Positions 4,358 through 42,124 of a stretch of 64,000 bases of DNA are shown here, piece after piece. This DNA is from Flavobacteriaceae bacterium CRH. Lineage in GTDB: Bacteria > Bacteroidota > Bacteroidia > Flavobacteriales > Flavobacteriaceae. Both the position numbers and the translations under genes were made by a program. Positions within the stretch are counted from its first letter, which is position 1. The number at the start of each line of letters is the position of its first letter. The stretch lies in the NCBI GenBank assembly GCA_001507425.1, contig LMAJ01000003.1:372001-436000 (forward strand). Reading direction: 5' to 3'. The notes beneath the pieces were generated by a model. That model ran no database searches and was not told the DNA's origin. It was given only the letters and a program-made list of their open reading frames with translations.

Positions 4358-5530
4358 ATGAATATAGAAGAATTTGGCTTTGAAACCCTTGCCATACGTA
4401 CGCATTTAGAAAAAACACAATTTCAGGAACACTCAACCCCTTTGTATTTATCATCAAGTTTTGTATTTGAAGATGCTGAGGATATGAGAGCTTCTTTCAC
4501 AGAAGAAAAAGTCCGCAATATTTACTCACGTTTCAGCAATCCAAATACAACAGAATTTGTAGACAAAGTTTGTGCAATGGAAGGTGCCGAAGCCGGTTAT
4601 GCTTTTGCAACCGGAATGGCAGCAATATATTCTACGTTTGCCGCATTATTAGAATCAGGAGATCATATTGTTTCTGCAGGAAGTGTTTTTGGATCAACAC
4701 ATGCATTATTTATGACGTATTTTCCAAAATGGAAAATTGAGACTTCTTATTTTGATATCAATAAACCGGAAACAATTGAAAGTTTCATTAAACCAAACAC
4801 TAAAATTCTATATGCCGAAACACCTACAAATCCTGGTGTAGATGTAGTTGATTTAGAATTATTAGGCGCAATTGCTAAAAAGCACAATTTGATTTTAATA
4901 ATTGACAACTGTTTCGCTACACCATACATTCAGCAGCCAATTAAATATGGTGCGCATATCGTAGTTCATTCTGCAACAAAATTGATAGACGGACAAGGTC
5001 GTGTTTTGGGAGGAGTTGCCGTTGGAGATGCAGAGTTAATTCGTAAAATATACTTGTTTTCACGAAATACAGGACCTGCGATGTCGCCATTTAATGCATG
5101 GGTTTTGTCAAAAAGTTTAGAAACTTTGGCTGTTCGTGTCGACAAGCATTGTGAAAATGCTTTAAAAGTAGCTGAATTTTTAGAAAGTCACCCAAATGTA
5201 AACAGTGTGAAATATCCTTTCCTGAAATCACATCCAAAATATGAAATTGCCAAAAAACAAATGCTTTTAGGCGGTAATATTATTGCGATCGAAATTAAAG
5301 GCGGTCTTGAAGCAGGGCGACAATTTTTAGACAAGATTAAATTATGTTCTCTTTCGGCTAATATTGGCGATGTAAAAACGATTGTAACGCATCCGGCGTC
5401 GACAACACACAGCAAATTATCTGTTGAAGAAAAACTTGCCGTTGGAATTACAGAAGGTTTAGTTCGTGTTTCTGTAGGTTTAGAAACCGTAGCAGATGTA
5501 ATTGCAGATTTGAAGCAAGCGCTGGATTAA
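4358..5530 (+). CDS. metZ: MetZ-type O-acyl-homoserine sulfhydrylase (PLP-dependent)
   Basis: Cys/Met-metabolism PLP enzyme of 390 residues. The PLP lysine is K208 in HSATKLIDGQGRVLGG. That motif is characteristic of the O-succinylhomoserine sulfhydrylase (MetZ) group rather than classical MetY, which is longer (about 430 residues). With MetX upstream and a sulfide-producing operon downstream, the likely reaction is O-acetylhomoserine plus sulfide giving homocysteine. Cystathionine gamma-synthase activity (MetB) cannot be ruled out from sequence. It is the last gene of the riboswitch-led operon and is followed by a strong hairpin terminator. Confidence 0.8.
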   Translation: MNIEEFGFETLAIRTHLEKTQFQEHSTPLYLSSSFVFEDAEDMRASFTEEKVRNIYSRFSNPNTTEFVDKVCAMEGAEAGYAFATGMAAIYSTFAALLESGDHIVSAGSVFGSTHALFMTYFPKWKIETSYFDINKPETIESFIKPNTKILYAETPTNPGVDVVDLELLGAIAKKHNLILIIDNCFATPYIQQPIKYGAHIVVHSATKLIDGQGRVLGGVAVGDAELIRKIYLFSRNTGPAMSPFNAWVLSKSLETLAVRVDKHCENALKVAEFLESHPNVNSVKYPFLKSHPKYEIAKKQMLLGGNIIAIEIKGGLEAGRQFLDKIKLCSLSANIGDVKTIVTHPASTTHSKLSVEEKLAVGITEGLVRVSVGLETVADVIADLKQALD

Positions 5531-5590
5531 AGATTTTAGATTGATGATTTTAAATTTTAGATTCCGATAGGGGTTTAAAATTTTATTATA

Positions 5591-5646
5591 AATAACGATT
5601 TTTGACAGTAATTTAATTATTGTTAAAAATCGTTATTCTTTTTTAT
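5591..5646 (+). terminator. Hairpin terminator after metZ
   Basis: AATAACGATTTTT (5591-5603) is perfectly complementary to AAAAATCGTTATT (5625-5637). The inner sequence continues the stem with few mismatches, and CTTTTTTAT follows. It closes the metX-thrA-osmC-metZ operon and may work in both directions. Confidence 0.8.
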
Positions 5647-5726
5647 CGTAGTTTGAGTAAAAAGTATATTTTTGTTAAAATTGAAATTGGAAATTATTAA
5701 TAATCATTAACTTAACAAACTAAAAA

Positions 5727-6233
5727 ATGAGTAACTCTACCTACATTCTTGACGACAAATTATTAGCATCTAACGGAAGTCGTTTTTTAAATTATATTTT
5801 AGACCTTGTTGCTTTCATTCTGTTTTTCTTATTCTTTTGTGTTCTTCTCGGAACTTTTATAGGAATATTAGGAATGTCATCATTAAGCATTTGGATAAGA
5901 AGTTTGGGTAATTTAGGTTGGAATTGCATCATATTTACTTTGTATATATTATATTATACTTTGATGGAAGGGTTTTTTGGAAGATCAGTTGGAAAATTTA
6001 TTACGGGATCTATTGTAGTAGATGAAAATGGAGAAAAGCCAGGTTTTGGAATTATTTTTAAAAGGACTTTATGTAGATTAATTCCTTTTGATGGATTTTC
6101 CTTTTTAGGAAGTGATGGAAGAGGATGGCATGACACAATATCTGATACCTATGTAGTTAATAAAAAAGCTTTAGAGGAAGAGGTAAAAACGTTTCATGAA
6201 TTTAGCTTAATTGGGGTTCAGGAAGCAAATTAG
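5727..6233 (+). CDS. RDD family membrane protein
   Basis: A 168-residue integral membrane protein. The family-naming arginine and first aspartate appear in GSRFLNYILDL near residue 19. Hydrophobic segments lie at about 25-50 and 62-82. The conserved SVGKFITGSIVVDENG loop (about 91-106) and the ending GWHDTISDTYVV are typical of RDD proteins. Their biochemical role is mostly unknown; transport or membrane homeostasis is proposed for some members. A TATTTTTG -7-like box occurs at 5667-5674 without a well-spaced TTG. It is flanked by the metZ terminator and the Rrf2 gene, and nothing ties it to sulfur metabolism. Confidence 0.85.
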   Translation: MSNSTYILDDKLLASNGSRFLNYILDLVAFILFFLFFCVLLGTFIGILGMSSLSIWIRSLGNLGWNCIIFTLYILYYTLMEGFFGRSVGKFITGSIVVDENGEKPGFGIIFKRTLCRLIPFDGFSFLGSDGRGWHDTISDTYVVNKKALEEEVKTFHEFSLIGVQEAN

Positions 6234-6379
6234 TTAAACTATACTAAATTAGTAGAATATACTTTTATATTCTCTTATTATTCTCGATCAAAAAGCATAT
6301 TTTTGTTGTAGAATAATTTGTAGATTGTTGATTTTAGTAAAATCTAAATCAACAGTCTGCAATCTAAAATATATAAATA

Positions 6380-6790
6380 GTGCTTTCAAAGAAAACAAAA
6401 TACGGAATTAAAGCTTTAACTTATTTAGCCAGACGCGATAACAATGAACCTGTACAAATTGCAGAAATTGCCAGAAGCGAACATATTTCGATAAAATTTT
6501 TAGAAAGTATTTTATTACTGCTTAGAAACTCCGGTTTTCTTGGAGCTAAAAAAGGAAAAGGCGGCGGTTATTACCTGATAAAAGATCCAAAAGACATCAG
6601 TATGGCCAAAGTTTATCGTATTCTTGAAGGTCCAATTGCACTGCTTCCGTGCGCAAGTCACAATTTTTATGAAAAATGTGATGATTGTGATGACGAGTCA
6701 ACTTGTGCCGCCAGACGCTTAATGACTGAGGTTCGGGACAATACACTTAAAATACTTGAAAGTAATTCTCTCGCAGACATTGCTTTTTAA
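6380..6790 (+). CDS. Rrf2 family transcriptional regulator with four C-terminal-half cysteines
   Basis: A 136-residue Rrf2 protein: winged helix-turn-helix at about 1-65 (starting LSKKTKYGIKALTYLARR, with IAEIARSEHISIKFLESIL as the recognition region), then the wing GAKKGKGGGYYL. Cys91, 100, 103 and 109 could bind a metal or Fe-S cluster, although the spacing differs from IscR. It starts with GTG at 6380. A -7-like TATTTTTG lies at 6298-6305. The stop is 25 bases before the promoter of the sulfate assimilation operon, which contains a palindrome over its -7 box. A CymR-like or sulfur- or redox-sensing repressor of that operon is the natural inference. The ligand is unknown. Confidence 0.88.
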   Translation: MLSKKTKYGIKALTYLARRDNNEPVQIAEIARSEHISIKFLESILLLLRNSGFLGAKKGKGGGYYLIKDPKDISMAKVYRILEGPIALLPCASHNFYEKCDDCDDESTCAARRLMTEVRDNTLKILESNSLADIAF

Positions 6791-6815
6791 TCGATAAAAA
6801 TTATTAAAAAAAAGT

Positions 6816-6851
6816 TTGAATTTAAAAAAAAGTGTTACTTTTGCAAAGTAA
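6816..6851 (+). promoter_or_regulatory. Promoter and candidate operator of the sulfate assimilation operon
   Basis: TTG (6816-6818), a 17-bp spacer and TACTTTTG (6836-6843) match the Bacteroidota promoter exactly. The -7 box is embedded in a palindrome with perfect 7-bp arms, TTACTTT (6835-6841) and AAAGTAA (6845-6851). This is well placed for repression by the Rrf2 protein encoded just upstream. The operator role is an inference. Confidence 0.72.
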
Positions 6852-37341: not shown

Positions 37342-38256
37342 CTATTCAAATGCTATTGGTAAACTATATTTTGTTCTGGTCCTTTTACCGTTTTGTTCGC
37401 CCGGAACCCATTTTGGGGATAATTTTAAAACGCGAATTATTTCTTTTCCTATTTGCGGATTTGCATTTTTTGGAATTTCAAATGATGATAGTGAACCGTC
37501 TTTATCTATAACAAATGAAACCGTAATTGGCGATTTGAAATTTTCAGCTTCCTCAGGTGTTTTAAATTCCTTTACAAAAAAATCATAAAAACTATTAATT
37601 CCGCCTGGATAATTTGGTGCTGTTTCAACCGCCGCACCCATATATATAATGTCGTCTTCTGTAATGTTTTGAATTGAATTATTTTCCTCAGTAATTATCG
37701 GGCCAGGATAAGATCCGGCAGGTAATGCACAGCTAATTGAAGGTTCAGATTTAACAGTGATTGTTTTAAATTTAGTTTTTACTGGTTTTTGAAATTTTAC
37801 ACCATCAGCTTTTGGCACAGAATCAACAGCTTGGTCCGGATTATTTTTTGAAATTTCATTTTTAGCGTTTGGTATTGTTATCGAAGTATTTTCAATAATT
37901 TCAACGCTATCAATTTTTTGCTTGTTTCCGTCTTTATCTGCACAGCTAAACAAAGTGGTTCCCATAGCAATAAACAAAGCCAGCAAAAATATTTTATGAT
38001 AATGAGTTTGTGTATATAAAACCTGACTTGGAATTTGAATCGTTATTGAATCTAGTTGCGATTTTTTAAATCTTCCGCAAATTTTTTTATTTTGATTTTG
38101 AATGAAAAAATGCTGAATTTCCTGAGGAAGCATTGTTGTAAAATCAATAACAGTTTTAGAACAGCTCATACAAAAACGGCCATTTTCGTTTGGCGTCATT
38201 TTATCCCAGTTTTCATGGCACGGTTCAGGAATTGTTATTTTGTGTTTTCTTTCCAT
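37342..38256 (-). CDS. Cys4-TM-TonB-like protein, paralog 4 of the array (last gene)
   Basis: 304 residues. The N-terminal domain has Cys13, Cys29, Cys32 and Cys60 (PCHENW, RFCMSC, KICGRF), a zinc-ribbon-like pattern common in Bacteroidota membrane proteins. A hydrophobic segment at 88-104 ends in LFSC105. After a polar linker comes a TonB C-terminal-like domain: YPGGINSFYDFF, PITVSFVIDKDGSL, VLKLSPKWVPGEQNGKR, YSLPIAFE. Topology would be cytoplasmic Cys4 domain, one membrane pass, periplasmic TonB-like domain. Its ATG overlaps the stop of the preceding gene by one base (TAATG). The function is not known; energy transduction to outer-membrane receptors is the usual TonB role. Confidence 0.75.
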   Translation of the reverse strand: MERKHKITIPEPCHENWDKMTPNENGRFCMSCSKTVIDFTTMLPQEIQHFFIQNQNKKICGRFKKSQLDSITIQIPSQVLYTQTHYHKIFLLALFIAMGTTLFSCADKDGNKQKIDSVEIIENTSITIPNAKNEISKNNPDQAVDSVPKADGVKFQKPVKTKFKTITVKSEPSISCALPAGSYPGPIITEENNSIQNITEDDIIYMGAAVETAPNYPGGINSFYDFFVKEFKTPEEAENFKSPITVSFVIDKDGSLSSFEIPKNANPQIGKEIIRVLKLSPKWVPGEQNGKRTRTKYSLPIAFE

Positions 38257-39089
38257 TATTTAATTGTAATTGGCAAAGAATATTGTCTCTTTATTTTTTT
38301 GCCATTAATTTCTCCCGGCTGCCATTTAGGGCACGCACTTAAAACTCTGATAATTTCTTGTTCTATAGCATTGTCAACAGCTGGAACACATTGAAGATAA
38401 GACACAGATCCGTTTTTTTCTACTGCAAAAGAAAGATTGATTTTGAGGTTTATATTTTCAGGATTTTTATATTCTTTTTCAAAAAAGCTATAAAACTGTT
38501 CGATTCCGCCCGGGAATTCTGCATTGGTTTCAATAGCAGTTCCCCCATTATAAACAGGTTCTTCTATTGTTTTTGTAGTTGATTTTGTTTCTTCATCCTT
38601 CACGCTTTTAGGCTTTACAAATTTAACCTGATCAACTTTTTGGGGTGGAGGTGGCGGAGGAGGAACATTTTTATCCGTTCGTAATGTTTTGCCTTTAACA
38701 ATATTCTCGTTTAATTTATGATCATTAGTAACTTCAATTTTATCAATTTTTTGCTTGCTTCCGTTTTTATCCTGACAACTAAATAAAGTTGTTCCCATTG
38801 TTACAAATAATGCTAATAAAAACATTTTGTAATAATTTGTTTGTGCATATAAAATGCGATTTGGAATTTGAATCGTTACAGTATCTAACTGCGATTTTCT
38901 AAACCTTCCGCAAACATTATTTTTTTTATTTTGAATAAAAAAATGCTGGATTTCCTGAGGAAGCATTGAAGTAAAATCAATAACAGTTTTAGAACAGCTC
39001 AAGCAAAAACGGCCATTTTCAGAAGGCGTCATTTTATTCCAGTCTTCATGGCACTGTTCAGAAATTGTAATTTTATGTTTTCTATTCAT
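38256..39089 (-). CDS. Cys4-TM-TonB-like protein, paralog 3 of the array
   Basis: 277 residues with the same plan: QCHEDW, RFCLSC and NVCGRF cysteines in the first 60 residues, membrane segment ending GTTLFSC, and TonB-like end (FPGGIEQFYSFFEKEY, INLSFAVEKNGSV, CPKWQPGEINGKKIKRQYSLPI). It is the only copy with a long polyproline linker (VPPPPPPPQKVDQVKFVKP), as in classical TonB proteins that span the periplasm. It overlaps both neighbours by one base. It has diverged most from the others in the Cys4 domain (MNRKHKITISEQ). Confidence 0.75.
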   Translation of the reverse strand: MNRKHKITISEQCHEDWNKMTPSENGRFCLSCSKTVIDFTSMLPQEIQHFFIQNKKNNVCGRFRKSQLDTVTIQIPNRILYAQTNYYKMFLLALFVTMGTTLFSCQDKNGSKQKIDKIEVTNDHKLNENIVKGKTLRTDKNVPPPPPPPQKVDQVKFVKPKSVKDEETKSTTKTIEEPVYNGGTAIETNAEFPGGIEQFYSFFEKEYKNPENINLKINLSFAVEKNGSVSYLQCVPAVDNAIEQEIIRVLSACPKWQPGEINGKKIKRQYSLPITIK

Positions 39090-39919
39090 TATTTAATTGT
39101 AATTGGTAAAAGGTAAGAGGAGCGTACAGTATGATCTTTTAGCTTTCCGGGAATCCAATTCGGAGCTGTTTTTAAAACTCTAATGGCTTCTTCTCCTATT
39201 TCTTTCGGTGTATTTTCAACGATGTTGAAATTACTCAAACTGCCATCTTCTTCTACAACAAATAAGATAAATATTTTCCCCTTAAACTTTTCTGTTTTTG
39301 CTGGAGCAGCATAATTTTTGTTAAAAAAAGCGTAAAAATTTTCCATCCCGTTTTCAGGAACAGGTAAAACATCTAAATCAGTTGAATTATGTATAGTGTG
39401 ATAGTTAAACGTTCCTTCCTCGCTATAATTAGGAACAACGAGATTTCCTACTACAATATCTTCATTATTTTTTTTGGTTTTTTCTTTTTTAGATTCGATC
39501 TGATGTCCGTAACATGAAGAATGAACCTCGTTTTCATCTTGATTTTGTGATTTGTTGTCAACAATCTCGATTTTATCAATTCTGTTTTTGTTTCCGTCTT
39601 TATCCTGACAACTAAACAATGTCGTTCCCATGGCAATAAACAAAGCGAGCAAAAACATTTTATGATAATGCGTTTGTGTATATAAAACCCGACTTGGAAT
39701 TTGAATCGTTAATGAATCTAGTTGCGATTTTTTAAATCTTCCGCAAATTTTTTTATTTTGATTTTGAATGAAAAAATGCTGTACTTCATTCGGTAACATG
39801 GAGGTAAAATCAATAACAGTTTTAGAACAACTCAAGCAAAAACGGCCATTTTCGTTTGTAGTCATTTCATCCCAGTTTTCAAGGCACGGTTCAGGAATTG
39901 TTATTTGTTTTCTTTCCAT
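39089..39919 (-). CDS. Cys4-TM-TonB-like protein, paralog 2 of the array
   Basis: 276 residues. The Cys4 domain (PCLENW, RFCLSC, KICGRF) and membrane segment are nearly identical to the others. The linker is unrelated in sequence and charged (KSQNQDENEVHSSCYGHQ). The C-terminal domain keeps MENFYAFFNKNY, KIFILFVVEEDGSL, VLKTAPNWIPG and YLLPITIK. It lacks the His5 found in the other copies (MERKQITIPEP). It starts 8 bases after the first gene of the array and overlaps the next by one base. Confidence 0.75.
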   Translation of the reverse strand: MERKQITIPEPCLENWDEMTTNENGRFCLSCSKTVIDFTSMLPNEVQHFFIQNQNKKICGRFKKSQLDSLTIQIPSRVLYTQTHYHKMFLLALFIAMGTTLFSCQDKDGNKNRIDKIEIVDNKSQNQDENEVHSSCYGHQIESKKEKTKKNNEDIVVGNLVVPNYSEEGTFNYHTIHNSTDLDVLPVPENGMENFYAFFNKNYAAPAKTEKFKGKIFILFVVEEDGSLSNFNIVENTPKEIGEEAIRVLKTAPNWIPGKLKDHTVRSSYLLPITIK

Positions 39920-39927
39920 TGTTTACA

Positions 39928-40863
39928 TTAATTTACTTGACTTACGCTGTTATCATTCTTGTTAACAAGATTAATTGAAACTATTTTTGAAAGATTTCTT
40001 TTTCTTCTTTCAGGGTTTAAACTGTCTTTTTGCACAATAATATTAAATCTAAAAACTTCAGCGCTTTCTTTTCCTTCATCAAAGCCTGGTTTCCACTTTT
40101 TAGACCTTTGCAAAACCCGGATAATTTCTTCTCCTGTTTCATGTCCAATATTATCAAAAACCTTAATTTGATTTAAAGTCCCGGTTTTGTCTATAACAAA
40201 AGAAACTTCGATTTCTCCTGTAATTCGTTTGGCTTTTTTAGGAATCTGAAATTCATCAGTAATAAATTCAGTAAATTTTGCAATCCCGCCTGGATATTCT
40301 GGCAATTTATAAATAGAACAAGTAGGAGGAGGAGGAATGCCGCCTTGGGTTTCACCATAATAACTACTACCATATCCTATGGATCCGGAAGGTTCGGCAT
40401 TTATTGTCAGGACGTCTTCAAGTATAGGTGGACGTGGCTTTTTTTCAGATATACTATCCTCGCGATTAGATTTGTCAAGAGGTTTCGGTGAATAATCTTC
40501 GACAACTTCTATTTTTTCAATTGCTTGTTTATTCCCATCTTCATTTTGACAACTAAACAAAGTTGTTCCCATAGCAATAAACAATGCCAATAGAAACATT
40601 TTATGATAATGGGTTTGTGTATATAGAACACGACTCGGAATTTGAATGGTTATTGAATCTAATTGAGCGTTTTTAAACCTTCCACAGATACTTTTGTTTT
40701 GATTTTGAATGAAAAAATGCTGAACTTCCTCAGGAAGCATCGCTCTAAAATCAATAACAGTTTTAGAACAGCTCAAGCAAAAACGGCCATTTTCGTTTGG
40801 AGTCATTTCATCCCAGTTTTCATGGCACGGTTCAGGAATTGTTATTTTATGTTTTCTTTCCAT
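39928..40863 (-). CDS. Cys4-TM-TonB-like protein, paralog 1 of the array (first gene)
   Basis: 311 residues and first in the transcription order. The Cys4 domain (PCHENW, RFCLSC, SICGRF) and membrane segment to LFSC105 match the paralogs. The linker contains GGIPPPPTCSIYKL. The TonB-like domain (YPGGIAKFTEFITDEF, GEIEVSFVIDKTGTLNQ, VLQRSKKWKPGFDEGK) is followed by a unique extra C-terminal stretch of about 35 residues (SLNPERRKRNLSKIVSIN). The operon promoter must lie in 40864-40935. That stretch is AT-rich; on the minus strand it has a TACATTTA -7-like sequence but no well-spaced TTG. Confidence 0.75.
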   Translation of the reverse strand: MERKHKITIPEPCHENWDEMTPNENGRFCLSCSKTVIDFRAMLPEEVQHFFIQNQNKSICGRFKNAQLDSITIQIPSRVLYTQTHYHKMFLLALFIAMGTTLFSCQNEDGNKQAIEKIEVVEDYSPKPLDKSNREDSISEKKPRPPILEDVLTINAEPSGSIGYGSSYYGETQGGIPPPPTCSIYKLPEYPGGIAKFTEFITDEFQIPKKAKRITGEIEVSFVIDKTGTLNQIKVFDNIGHETGEEIIRVLQRSKKWKPGFDEGKESAEVFRFNIIVQKDSLNPERRKRNLSKIVSINLVNKNDNSVSQVN

Positions 40864-40935: not shown

Positions 40936-40992
40936 TTGAGGCGATTATTTATGTTAATCGCCTCAAAAAAACACTATATTTGAGGCGATTAA
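40936..40992 (+). promoter_or_regulatory. Three operator-like TTGAGGCGATTA sites and -7 box before the Fic gene
   Basis: TTGAGGCGATTA (40936-40947), its inverse TTAATCGCCTCAA (40954-40966) and TTTGAGGCGATTAA (40979-40992) form two overlapping inverted pairs. The third site overlaps TATATTTG (40975-40982), a perfect TAnnTTTG -7 box. A half word GCCTCA recurs at 41004-41009, at the start codon. This suggests tight repression, possibly by the Fic protein's own C-terminal winged-helix region. Confidence 0.7.
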
Positions 40993-41008
40993 TTCTATTA
41001 AATGCCTC

Positions 41009-42124
41009 ATGAAATATAATTGGCAATTACCAAATTGGGAAAAATTCATATATGATGATGCTGTAATAGATTCATTATGTATTGAATTTGCATTAGAAAC
41101 AGGTGAATTGAAAGGGCTTGTAAACTCTTTATCTACTGAAATTCAACAAGAAACTATTTTACAATTTATGATTTCAGAAGCTATTAAAACTTCTGAAATT
41201 GAAGGGGAGTTTTTTAGCAGGCAAGATATAATGTCTTCCATTAAAAAAAACTTGGGTATAGATGAGGGGTTAGGTAAGATAAGAAACAAAAATGCGCAAG
41301 GGGTTGGTAAGTTAATGGTAATGATAAGAAATTCTTATTCTGATAAATTGAGAGAATCGTCTATAAAACAATGGCATTATATCTTAATGGAATATTCACG
41401 ACATATTAACCCTGGTGAATATAGAACTGGAGAAGAGCCTATGCAAATTGTTTCGGGTACTTATGGTAAAGAAATAGTTCATTTTGAAGCTCCCCCATCC
41501 AAACAGGTTCCAGCGGAAATGAAAAAATTCATTCAATGGTATAATGATTTTAAAATAAAAGCATCTGATGTTAAAAAGACTCTAATTAAAACTTCAATTT
41601 CTCATTTGTATTTTGAGAGCATTCATCCTTTTGAAGATGGAAATGGAAGAATTGGCCGGGCGATTGCTGAAAAATGCCTTTCGGAATCTCTCAATCGACC
41701 TGTTCTAATGAGTATTTCAAGTATTATTGAACAGAATAAAAAAAAGTATTACCAAGCTTTAAAAGAGGCACAACGAACCATTGAAATTACCGATTGGATT
41801 TTTTATTTTTCTAATTTGATTTTAGAATCTCAAAAAAACGCAAAACAAATTGTTCTTTTTACATTAAACAAAAGTAAATTCATAGACAAGTTTAAAAATC
41901 AAATGAATGAAAGACAGACAAAAGCAGTATTGAAAATGTTTGAATATGGTATTTCTGGTTTTGTGGGCGGAATGACGACAATAAAATATATTTCTATTAC
42001 TAAAACTTCAAGAGCAACAGCGACAAGAGATTTACAGGATTTAACAGATAAAAACATTTTGATGCCAAAAGGAGAAGGTAGAAATCGAGCGTATGATTTG
42101 AATTTATTGGTGAAAGACAACTAA
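41009..42124 (+). CDS. Fic family AMP-transferase with N-terminal DUF4172-like region and C-terminal winged helix
   Basis: 371 residues. The catalytic Fic motif HPFEDGNGRIGR is complete at 206-217, so the protein should be able to transfer AMP or a similar group from a nucleotide to target proteins. The inhibitory helix motif (S/T)xxxE(G/N) is present at the N-terminal side, T61-SEI-E65-G66. This makes it a class II Fic, self-inhibited in cis. The N-terminal WQLPNWEKFIYDDA matches the DUF4172 domain often paired with Fic. The C-terminus (VGGMTTIKYISITKTSRATATRDLQDL) looks like a DNA-binding winged helix. No separate antitoxin gene is adjacent. Confidence 0.87.
   Translation: MKYNWQLPNWEKFIYDDAVIDSLCIEFALETGELKGLVNSLSTEIQQETILQFMISEAIKTSEIEGEFFSRQDIMSSIKKNLGIDEGLGKIRNKNAQGVGKLMVMIRNSYSDKLRESSIKQWHYILMEYSRHINPGEYRTGEEPMQIVSGTYGKEIVHFEAPPSKQVPAEMKKFIQWYNDFKIKASDVKKTLIKTSISHLYFESIHPFEDGNGRIGRAIAEKCLSESLNRPVLMSISSIIEQNKKKYYQALKEAQRTIEITDWIFYFSNLILESQKNAKQIVLFTLNKSKFIDKFKNQMNERQTKAVLKMFEYGISGFVGGMTTIKYISITKTSRATATRDLQDLTDKNILMPKGEGRNRAYDLNLLVKDN

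Follow-up and report, generated by a model that had tools for sequence, protein, structure and literature searches.

Four adjacent open reading frames on the minus strand of the 64,000-nucleotide stretch of DNA analysed here (the window) form a tandem array at 37342-40863. The question raised by this locus is whether their products are TonB energy transducers with a built-in cytoplasmic sensor, as a sequence-only reading had proposed, or precursors from which an envelope protein is released. We consider it probable (about 0.72) that the array products are TonB_C lipoproteins derived from Cys4-led precursors, and not ExbB/D-driven TonBs with such a sensor.

A shared N-terminal half and divergent C-terminal domains

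In transcription order, the first gene (39928..40863; this and all further features lie on the minus strand) encodes protein 4 of 311 residues, comprising a Cys4 leader, a lipobox signal peptide, a linker, a TonB_C domain and a C-terminal tail. It is followed by the genes for protein 3 (39089..39919, 276 residues), protein 2 (38256..39089, 277 residues, with a Pro-rich linker) and protein 1 (37342..38256, 304 residues), the last being the protein modelled with AlphaFold. The close spacing described earlier holds for exactly three junctions, two of them 1-base overlaps and the third an 8-base gap. Over residues 1-105 protein 1 shares 76, 89 and 90 % identity with the other three proteins, its full-length identity to them is 54-57 %, and C-terminal to the lipobox cysteine the pairwise identity among the four is 26-42 %, in agreement with the earlier description of near-identical N-termini joined to divergent linkers and C-terminal domains. 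The suggestion that gene conversion keeps the N-termini alike also finds support in the sequences of the 5' halves. An NCBIfam scan of the four proteins gave sub-threshold hits only. A 105-column N-terminal profile built from them had at least one match in 60 of 121 same-genus genomes, a count that includes Cys4 proteins of types other than the array, and a wider Cys4 profile matched in at least 53 of the 395 phylum genomes, where scoring stopped at 14 candidates per genome; the N-terminal likeness is therefore not due to chance.

The Cys4 leader spans about residues 7-70 in protein 4 (40654..40845), and lies at 39713..39904, 38880..39071 and 38047..38238 in proteins 3, 2 and 1, respectively. 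All four array proteins carry Cys13, Cys29, Cys32 and Cys60 together with a fifth cysteine at 105, and the conserved Cys4 module recognised earlier is borne out by the phylum sample, where the four cysteines are invariant in all 53 aligned, diverse, non-redundant members with a near-complete domain. The domain probably binds zinc, as judged from its sequence. It was modelled for protein 1 with middling confidence (mean pLDDT 76), and a fold search of the PDB with this model returned no solved relative. HMG-box chains, the main matches in a sequence search of solved structures, aligned over 20 residues with a best E-value of 0.015, and were taken as chance matches.

At the C-terminus, TonB_C (PF03544) scores 30-31 bits in proteins 1, 3 and 4, above the Pfam cut-off of 24.6, and 19.5 bits in protein 2, which is below it. 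The domain lies at 40045..40236 in protein 4 (Pfam match), at 39092..39319 in protein 3 (Pfam match extended to the end) and at 37345..37602 in protein 1 (as delimited in the AlphaFold model), while for protein 2 a TonB_C-like domain is placed at 38259..38516, with the wider limits around the sub-cut-off match drawn by eye on the alignment. The model of protein 1 as a whole has a mean pLDDT of 71 and a pTM of 0.43; its C-terminal domain is confident (block means 86-98) and, among solved structures, best matches TonB C-terminal domains. The variable TonB_C outputs of the earlier proposal are thus upheld by Pfam in three of four proteins and by the model in protein 1. The linker is predicted to be disordered and is partly Pro-rich.

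Putative signal peptidase sites closing the hydrophobic segment

Overlooked in the sequence-only reading, the membrane segment closes in all four array proteins with Cys105 as a lipobox (LFS-C105). The putative signal-peptide core together with its lipobox (residues 89-105, closing with LFS-C) maps to 40549..40599 in protein 4, 39608..39658 in protein 3, 38775..38825 in protein 2 and 37942..37992 in protein 1. All 88 aligned array members keep Cys105, and 22 further candidates, left out of the alignment by hand, carry FSC in 21 cases and FSQ in one (L069_4152). A site of the lipobox class is found in 155 of 156 array-type relatives; the site pattern is also matched in 19 % of shuffled segments. 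The core is preceded by a basic residue (position 88 is K in 87 of 88 members and R in the remaining one), and the N-terminal stretch before the core is about 88 residues long instead of the short n-region usual for lipoprotein signal peptides, which is found only in paralogues devoid of Cys4. Met89 is present in only 66 of the 88 array members, and this lack of conservation led us to reject an internal start of translation immediately before the core.

The pairing extends beyond the array. Among 54 non-redundant Cys4 proteins of the phylum, 44 end the segment with a lipobox or with a small residue followed by Q (signal peptidase I, Q at +1), as counted with a pattern widened after inspection of the misses; the first, narrower pattern gave 41 of 54. 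Before counting, 7 of 254 unique Cys4 hits were excluded for an incomplete domain or the lack of a segment. In the genome of the array, the same site pattern occurs in 1 of 14 FecR proteins, in none of 6 ExbD proteins and in none of 4 further TonB_C proteins (four of its six other TonB_C proteins, with L016 and L018 left out). Among flanking open reading frames it occurs in 2 of 27; the comparison of Cys4 proteins with FecR gives a Fisher p of 4e-7. The ten members scored by script as lacking a clear site comprise eight with A-x-A only and two with none. On reading, L160 and L178, which the script counted as lipobox, resemble signal peptidase I sites, and L183, counted as having no site, contains HAQ after an earlier hydrophobic stretch. 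According to passages of PMC5837995, Q at +1 characterises the signal peptidase I substrates of Bacteroidetes. Two Cys4 relatives have type IX sorting domains as their C-terminal end.

Eight paralogues without Cys4, seven of them array paralogues and the eighth from a genome without the array N-terminus, retain the lipobox and read as lipoproteins; in L095 most of Cys4 is deleted, and in L090 a stop and an ATG lie between Cys4 and the core. Taken together, the lipobox, the signal peptidase I sites, the type IX sorting tails and these Cys4-less lipobox paralogues lead us to read the hydrophobic segment as most likely a cleavable signal peptide, with cleavage predicted from sequence features.

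Core length, tried as a discriminator between signal peptides and anchors, failed, as the median is 15 both for this core and for FecR anchors, measured slightly differently. Membrane anchors are typically longer than signal peptides, according to parts of PMC6589146. The conservation of the core exceeds what a mere signal peptide requires, and an uncleaved functional helix would account for this too. In a comparison without tree correction, the core is almost frozen where Cys4 is present and relaxed where Cys4 has been lost, which suggests that Cys4 and the helix work as a unit.

Weighing the alternatives

The model from which the analysis started, where uncleaved TonB variants with a cytoplasmic zinc or redox sensor are driven by ExbB/ExbD and serve different receptors, draws on the TonB_C domain with its disordered, partly Pro-rich linker, and on a hydrophobic core that is very strongly conserved and resembles FecR anchors in length. 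It was demoted on the near-universal lipobox and on the features of the relatives, and we now regard it as unlikely. A permanent anchor joining the sensor to ExbB/ExbD-driven TonBs is difficult to reconcile with a lipobox in all four genes, with relatives bearing signal peptidase I sites or type IX tails, and with the lipoprotein character of the Cys4-less paralogues. Moreover, no ExbD gene is linked to the array; the six ExbD places are on contigs C1, C4 and C19 whereas the array is on C3. By contrast, ExbD genes are found no further than about 1 kb from the TonB_C genes L010 and L019, of which L019 scores below the Pfam cut-off. Linkage of TonB genes to exbB/exbD is common, not universal. 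In 12 of the 18 matched places of an article on TonB and TolA evolution (PMC12204202), lipidated TonBs go unmentioned.

A sensor of the anti-sigma kind, where the cytoplasmic Cys4 domain would hold a sigma factor while the envelope domain senses, has a parallel in dual-membrane-spanning Dma proteins, to which parts of PMC13088901 attribute a cytoplasmic domain, a single membrane pass, a disordered tether and an envelope domain. We consider it very improbable, since tadA and dxs flank the array in 77 of 78 loci, no sigma gene is present among the scanned neighbours in the window, and no sigma family has two or more matches among 99 neighbour open reading frames of divergent Cys4 genes (for the 25 of 169 families listed, such that a single case could occur). 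In addition, just 1 of 14 FecR segments has a signal-peptidase-like end, and none of the four array proteins has a FecR Pfam match. Somewhat less unlikely, though still doubtful, is a Cys4 extension devoid of post-translational function, that is, a tolerated front end which perhaps aids folding or targeting and is degraded after cleavage. Several array paralogues do retain the lipoprotein half without Cys4, but the invariance of the four cysteines across the phylum sample and the freezing of the core solely where Cys4 is present argue against this reading.

A probable lipoprotein precursor with a cytoplasmic leader

In the preferred reading, of TonB_C lipoproteins made from Cys4-led precursors, the chain would open with a cytoplasmic Cys4 domain (about 65 residues), which a short linker joins to the LFS-C signal peptide; a long, predicted disordered stretch and the TonB_C-fold domain would follow. 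The chain would enter the Sec channel with the Cys4 domain remaining in the cytoplasm, Cys105 would be lipidated and signal peptidase II would cut before it. One product would be a TonB_C lipoprotein of the envelope, probably on the outer membrane and facing the periplasm, and the other a remnant of Cys4 plus helix left in the inner membrane. Published export signals, given in portions of PMC5080379 as SDDFE for F. johnsoniae and C-X-K-D/E-D/E for Capnocytophaga, are unmatched in the array proteins, and surface display is therefore not predicted. The lipoprotein would most likely be an accessory or competitor that is not energised and that binds the TonB boxes of TonB-dependent receptors or else other TonB domains, and the four divergent copies may have different partners. 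The leader would probably regulate or report export through bound zinc or its thiol state, and gene conversion keeps the 5' halves similar as the outputs grow apart.

The order of anchor, partly Pro-rich linker and TonB_C is the ordinary TonB layout, and the array proteins share with TonB energy transducers the C-terminal fold and the disordered linker, but differ from them in the lipobox at the segment end, the Cys4 domain in front and the lack of a linked ExbD. The basic residue, hydrophobic core and LFSC lipobox are those of Bacteroidota lipoproteins processed by signal peptidase II, although here a conserved domain occupies about 88 residues before the core. Similarly, many Cys4 relatives end their core with a small residue and Q like the secreted proteins covered in passages of PMC5837995, but with the long conserved extension in front. 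The FecR and Dma anti-sigma proteins of Bacteroidota have a comparable cytoplasmic domain, single membrane pass and envelope part, whereas the array proteins have a cleavage-type site at the segment end and no linked sigma gene was found. Long or retained signal peptides with a function of their own are known, such as the arenavirus stable signal peptide and the extended signal peptides of autotransporters. Compared by description only, they would work like the Cys4-helix remnant if the remnant is kept, except that here a conserved Cys4 domain is common to many different outputs.

More tentatively, and as a possibility to which we give less than even odds, two-product precursors may occur across the phylum, with Cys4 placed before cleavable signal peptides of both type I and type II, where the remnant remains in the inner membrane after cleavage and, as a leader responsive to zinc or thiol state, gates the export of its own cargo or reports on it, and where converted leaders in tandem arrays provide one control module for many outputs. 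The cargo types would be envelope proteins of the TonB/receptor world (TonB_C, CarboxypepD_reg, plug-like and type IX cargo). A literature search, whose reach mostly stopped short of subscription papers and preprints, returned no description of a Cys4 domain ahead of signal peptides.

The usual view of signal peptides is of short tags that are discarded after use, and prediction programs look for them close to the N-terminus. If Cys4 domains do precede cleavable signal peptides across Bacteroidota, such proteins would easily be misread as membrane-anchored TonBs or left unnamed, and metal- or redox-dependent control of export may have gone unnoticed. For the array itself, release of a lipoprotein from its leader would point to TonB-fold domains acting without the ExbB/ExbD motor.

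The four-gene array, its setting and its N-termini

Four tandem open reading frames lie at 37342-40863 on the minus strand, from protein 1 (37342-38256) to protein 4 (39928-40863, the first transcribed). Residues 1-105, which include an N-terminal four-cysteine domain (Cys4; Cys 13, 29, 32 and 60), are common to all and 76-90 % identical to protein 1, whereas pairwise identity past Cys105 is 26-42 %. The sequence-only reading had described such near-identical N-termini with a divergent remainder, and this holds; its 1-base overlaps and 8-base gaps are also present, although the tally is two overlaps and one gap. Its TonB_C fold for the variable C-terminal domains is likewise borne out, as the Pfam match is above cut-off in three proteins (under it in protein 2) and protein 1, modelled with AlphaFold from 88 aligned rows (mean pLDDT 71, pTM 0.43), has a confident C-terminal domain with TonB C-terminal domains as best solved matches (6i97 chain D, probability 1.00, E ~0.001). 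In this model Cys4 is compact (block means 83-90) and pLDDT is below 50 at approximately residues 121-193.

At 77 of 78 fetched loci the array, with one to five profile-matching ORFs, is flanked by a divergent tadA and by dxs on its own strand; in the window dxs follows 59 bases downstream. Some array-less genomes have tadA and dxs directly adjacent (e.g. locus L265). Locus L085 carries a single 568-residue ORF (5122-6828) of two fused array units; L065 (6001-7467) and L098 (5959-7245) show, by eye, a single Cys4 leader followed by two apparent TonB_C-type domains in tandem. The divergent Fic/DUF4172 gene adjoining the array in the window (41009-42124) was found in 3 of 78 loci; the stretch separating it from the array (40936-41014) contains repeated copies of TTGAGGCGATTA, some inverted and some direct, which are perhaps an operator of this gene. 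Coupling to ExbB/ExbD, implied by the earlier reading, is not reflected in gene linkage, since the six ExbD genes found lie on contigs C1, C4 and C19, none of them linked to the array. A scan of window neighbours revealed no sigma gene, and none figures in the 25 of 169 families listed for 99 neighbour ORFs of divergent Cys4 genes.

Gene conversion of the N-termini, suspected from the outset, is supported by divergence along the genes: synonymous identity among the window genes starts at 0.91 at the 5' end and has dropped to 0.56 by the hydrophobic core (C-terminal windows, 0.31-0.75). Once rows lacking FSC or MNC had been removed, suitable comparisons were available in 26 genomes, and in 22 of them N-terminal synonymous identity was higher between same-genome paralogues than, on average, with other genomes' orthologues of the partner (Wilcoxon p 5e-4), whereas the C-terminal control gave 14 of 26 (p 0.17).

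Predicted signal-peptidase sites after Cys4

The membrane segment closes with LFS-C in all four window proteins, and in an alignment of 88 array members (these four, 83 of 105 candidates and L122; 22 candidates were excluded by hand) Cys105 is invariant and position 88, just before the core, is always Lys or Arg. The excluded candidates have FSC in 21 cases; the other (L069_4152, at 4152-5072 of L069) is an array member with FSQ replacing the lipobox FSC. The lipobox class takes in 155 of the 156 array-type proteins of a fuller set.

A 13-row Cys4 profile, run on 395 genomes sampled from the phylum, matched in at least 53 of them, from at least 24 of 170 genera, a lower bound because at most 14 candidates were scored per genome. 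Sixty stretches were fetched around further matches; 247 of 254 unique matches had a near-complete domain and a scorable segment, and clustering at 60 % domain identity reduced these to 54. All 53 proteins aligned (the 54 minus L132) have the four cysteines, on which account Cys4 quite probably binds metal; searches of solved structures by sequence and by predicted fold gave no credible match for it. Other Cys4 genes also occur in tandem pairs or triplets, at L203 584-2861 (1-base overlaps), L205 1174-2515, L216 1142-2542 and L211 1048-2467.

Of the 54 proteins, 44 close the segment directly after Cys4 with either a lipobox (18) or a small residue plus Q (26), the remainder having A-x-A only (8) or no site by script (2); according to PMC5837995, Q at +1 characterises Bacteroidetes substrates of signal peptidase I. 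A narrower first pattern gave 41 of 54; on the unclustered set it gave 233 of 247. With the same patterns, sites were found in 1 of 14 FecR, none of six ExbD and none of four other TonB_C proteins of the genome (L016 and L018 left out), and in 2 of 27 flanking ORFs, one resembling a DUF3078 protein with its start called too early. Of shuffled segments, 19 % matched. We put at roughly 0.8 the probability that a signal peptide follows Cys4 and that the array product is a TonB_C lipoprotein, this and all other odds on mechanism being judgement, not calculated.

Cys4 and the predicted lipoprotein half, apart and together

Natural deletions bear on whether Cys4 and output stay coupled as sensor and TonB-like part, as first proposed. 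Seven array-region ORFs (L063, L076, L079, L088, L089, L102 and L110; starts called mechanically) are without Cys4 and keep the same core type and a lipobox within ~35 residues of the start. An eighth, L242, lies upstream of dxs in genome G006, where the sole match to the 105-column profile sits on a different contig. In L095 most of Cys4 is gone with the reading frame retained, and in L090 a stop inside the linker, shortly followed by an ATG, splits Cys4 from the signal peptide. All ten proteins retain the lipobox Cys, and seven match TonB_C at E <0.01, one above cut-off (L076, L090 and L110 show no match). Judged from these sequences, the lipoprotein half seems to stand alone without Cys4.

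On the other side, the 16-residue core plus lipobox has a median identity to consensus of 1.00 (minimum 0.69) in 108 Cys4-bearing array members and of 0.72 in the ten proteins without an intact fused Cys4 (split gene L090, 0.94). The Mann-Whitney p of 5e-8, or 2e-5 against 22 Cys4-bearing members of the same output type, is optimistic, because the rows are non-independent and the consensus was derived from Cys4-bearing members, themselves selected for FSC or MNC. Across the window genes, synonymous identity at the core is only 0.56 against an amino acid identity of 0.90; selection at the protein level thus maintains the core. The simplest reading of these comparisons is that Cys4 and the helix would function together as a unit, either prior to cleavage or in the form of a remnant that persists; a retained regulatory Cys4-helix we regard as rather unlikely.

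Outputs and placement

Among 53 Cys4 members scanned (E <=0.01), CarbopepD_reg_2 was detected in 32, TonB_C in 5, Plug in 2 and a type IX sorting domain in 2 (L149 and L153; 40 and 31 bits, above the Pfam cut-off of 27). Type IX cargo must get out of the inner membrane, and an uncleaved anchor in these two would therefore make little sense. Plug, SusC-type regulatory domain and TonB_C all belong to the TonB and receptor world, the common theme of the outputs. From the fold alone, the lipoprotein might bind TonB boxes, a suggestion we make tentatively. Two Cys4 proteins, L155 and L161 (235 and 196 residues), have a mature part that matches the TonB-dependent receptor plug domain and are too short for a barrel; the CarboxypepD_reg-like outputs of L203, L205, L216, L157 and L171 end, by eye, in a basic, aromatic tail (e.g. 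FFGRIFHSIGNIFR), possibly an amphipathic helix.

Past the lipobox Cys, the 88 aligned members have mostly Q/A, D/N and K, which does not match the surface export signal consensus in PMC5080379; the lipoprotein is therefore tentatively placed at the outer membrane, facing the periplasm.

The component parts (lipoprotein, TonB_C, signal peptidase substrates) are of known kinds. No description of a conserved Cys4 domain ahead of cleavable signal peptides was found in the literature searched, mostly without subscription papers and preprints.
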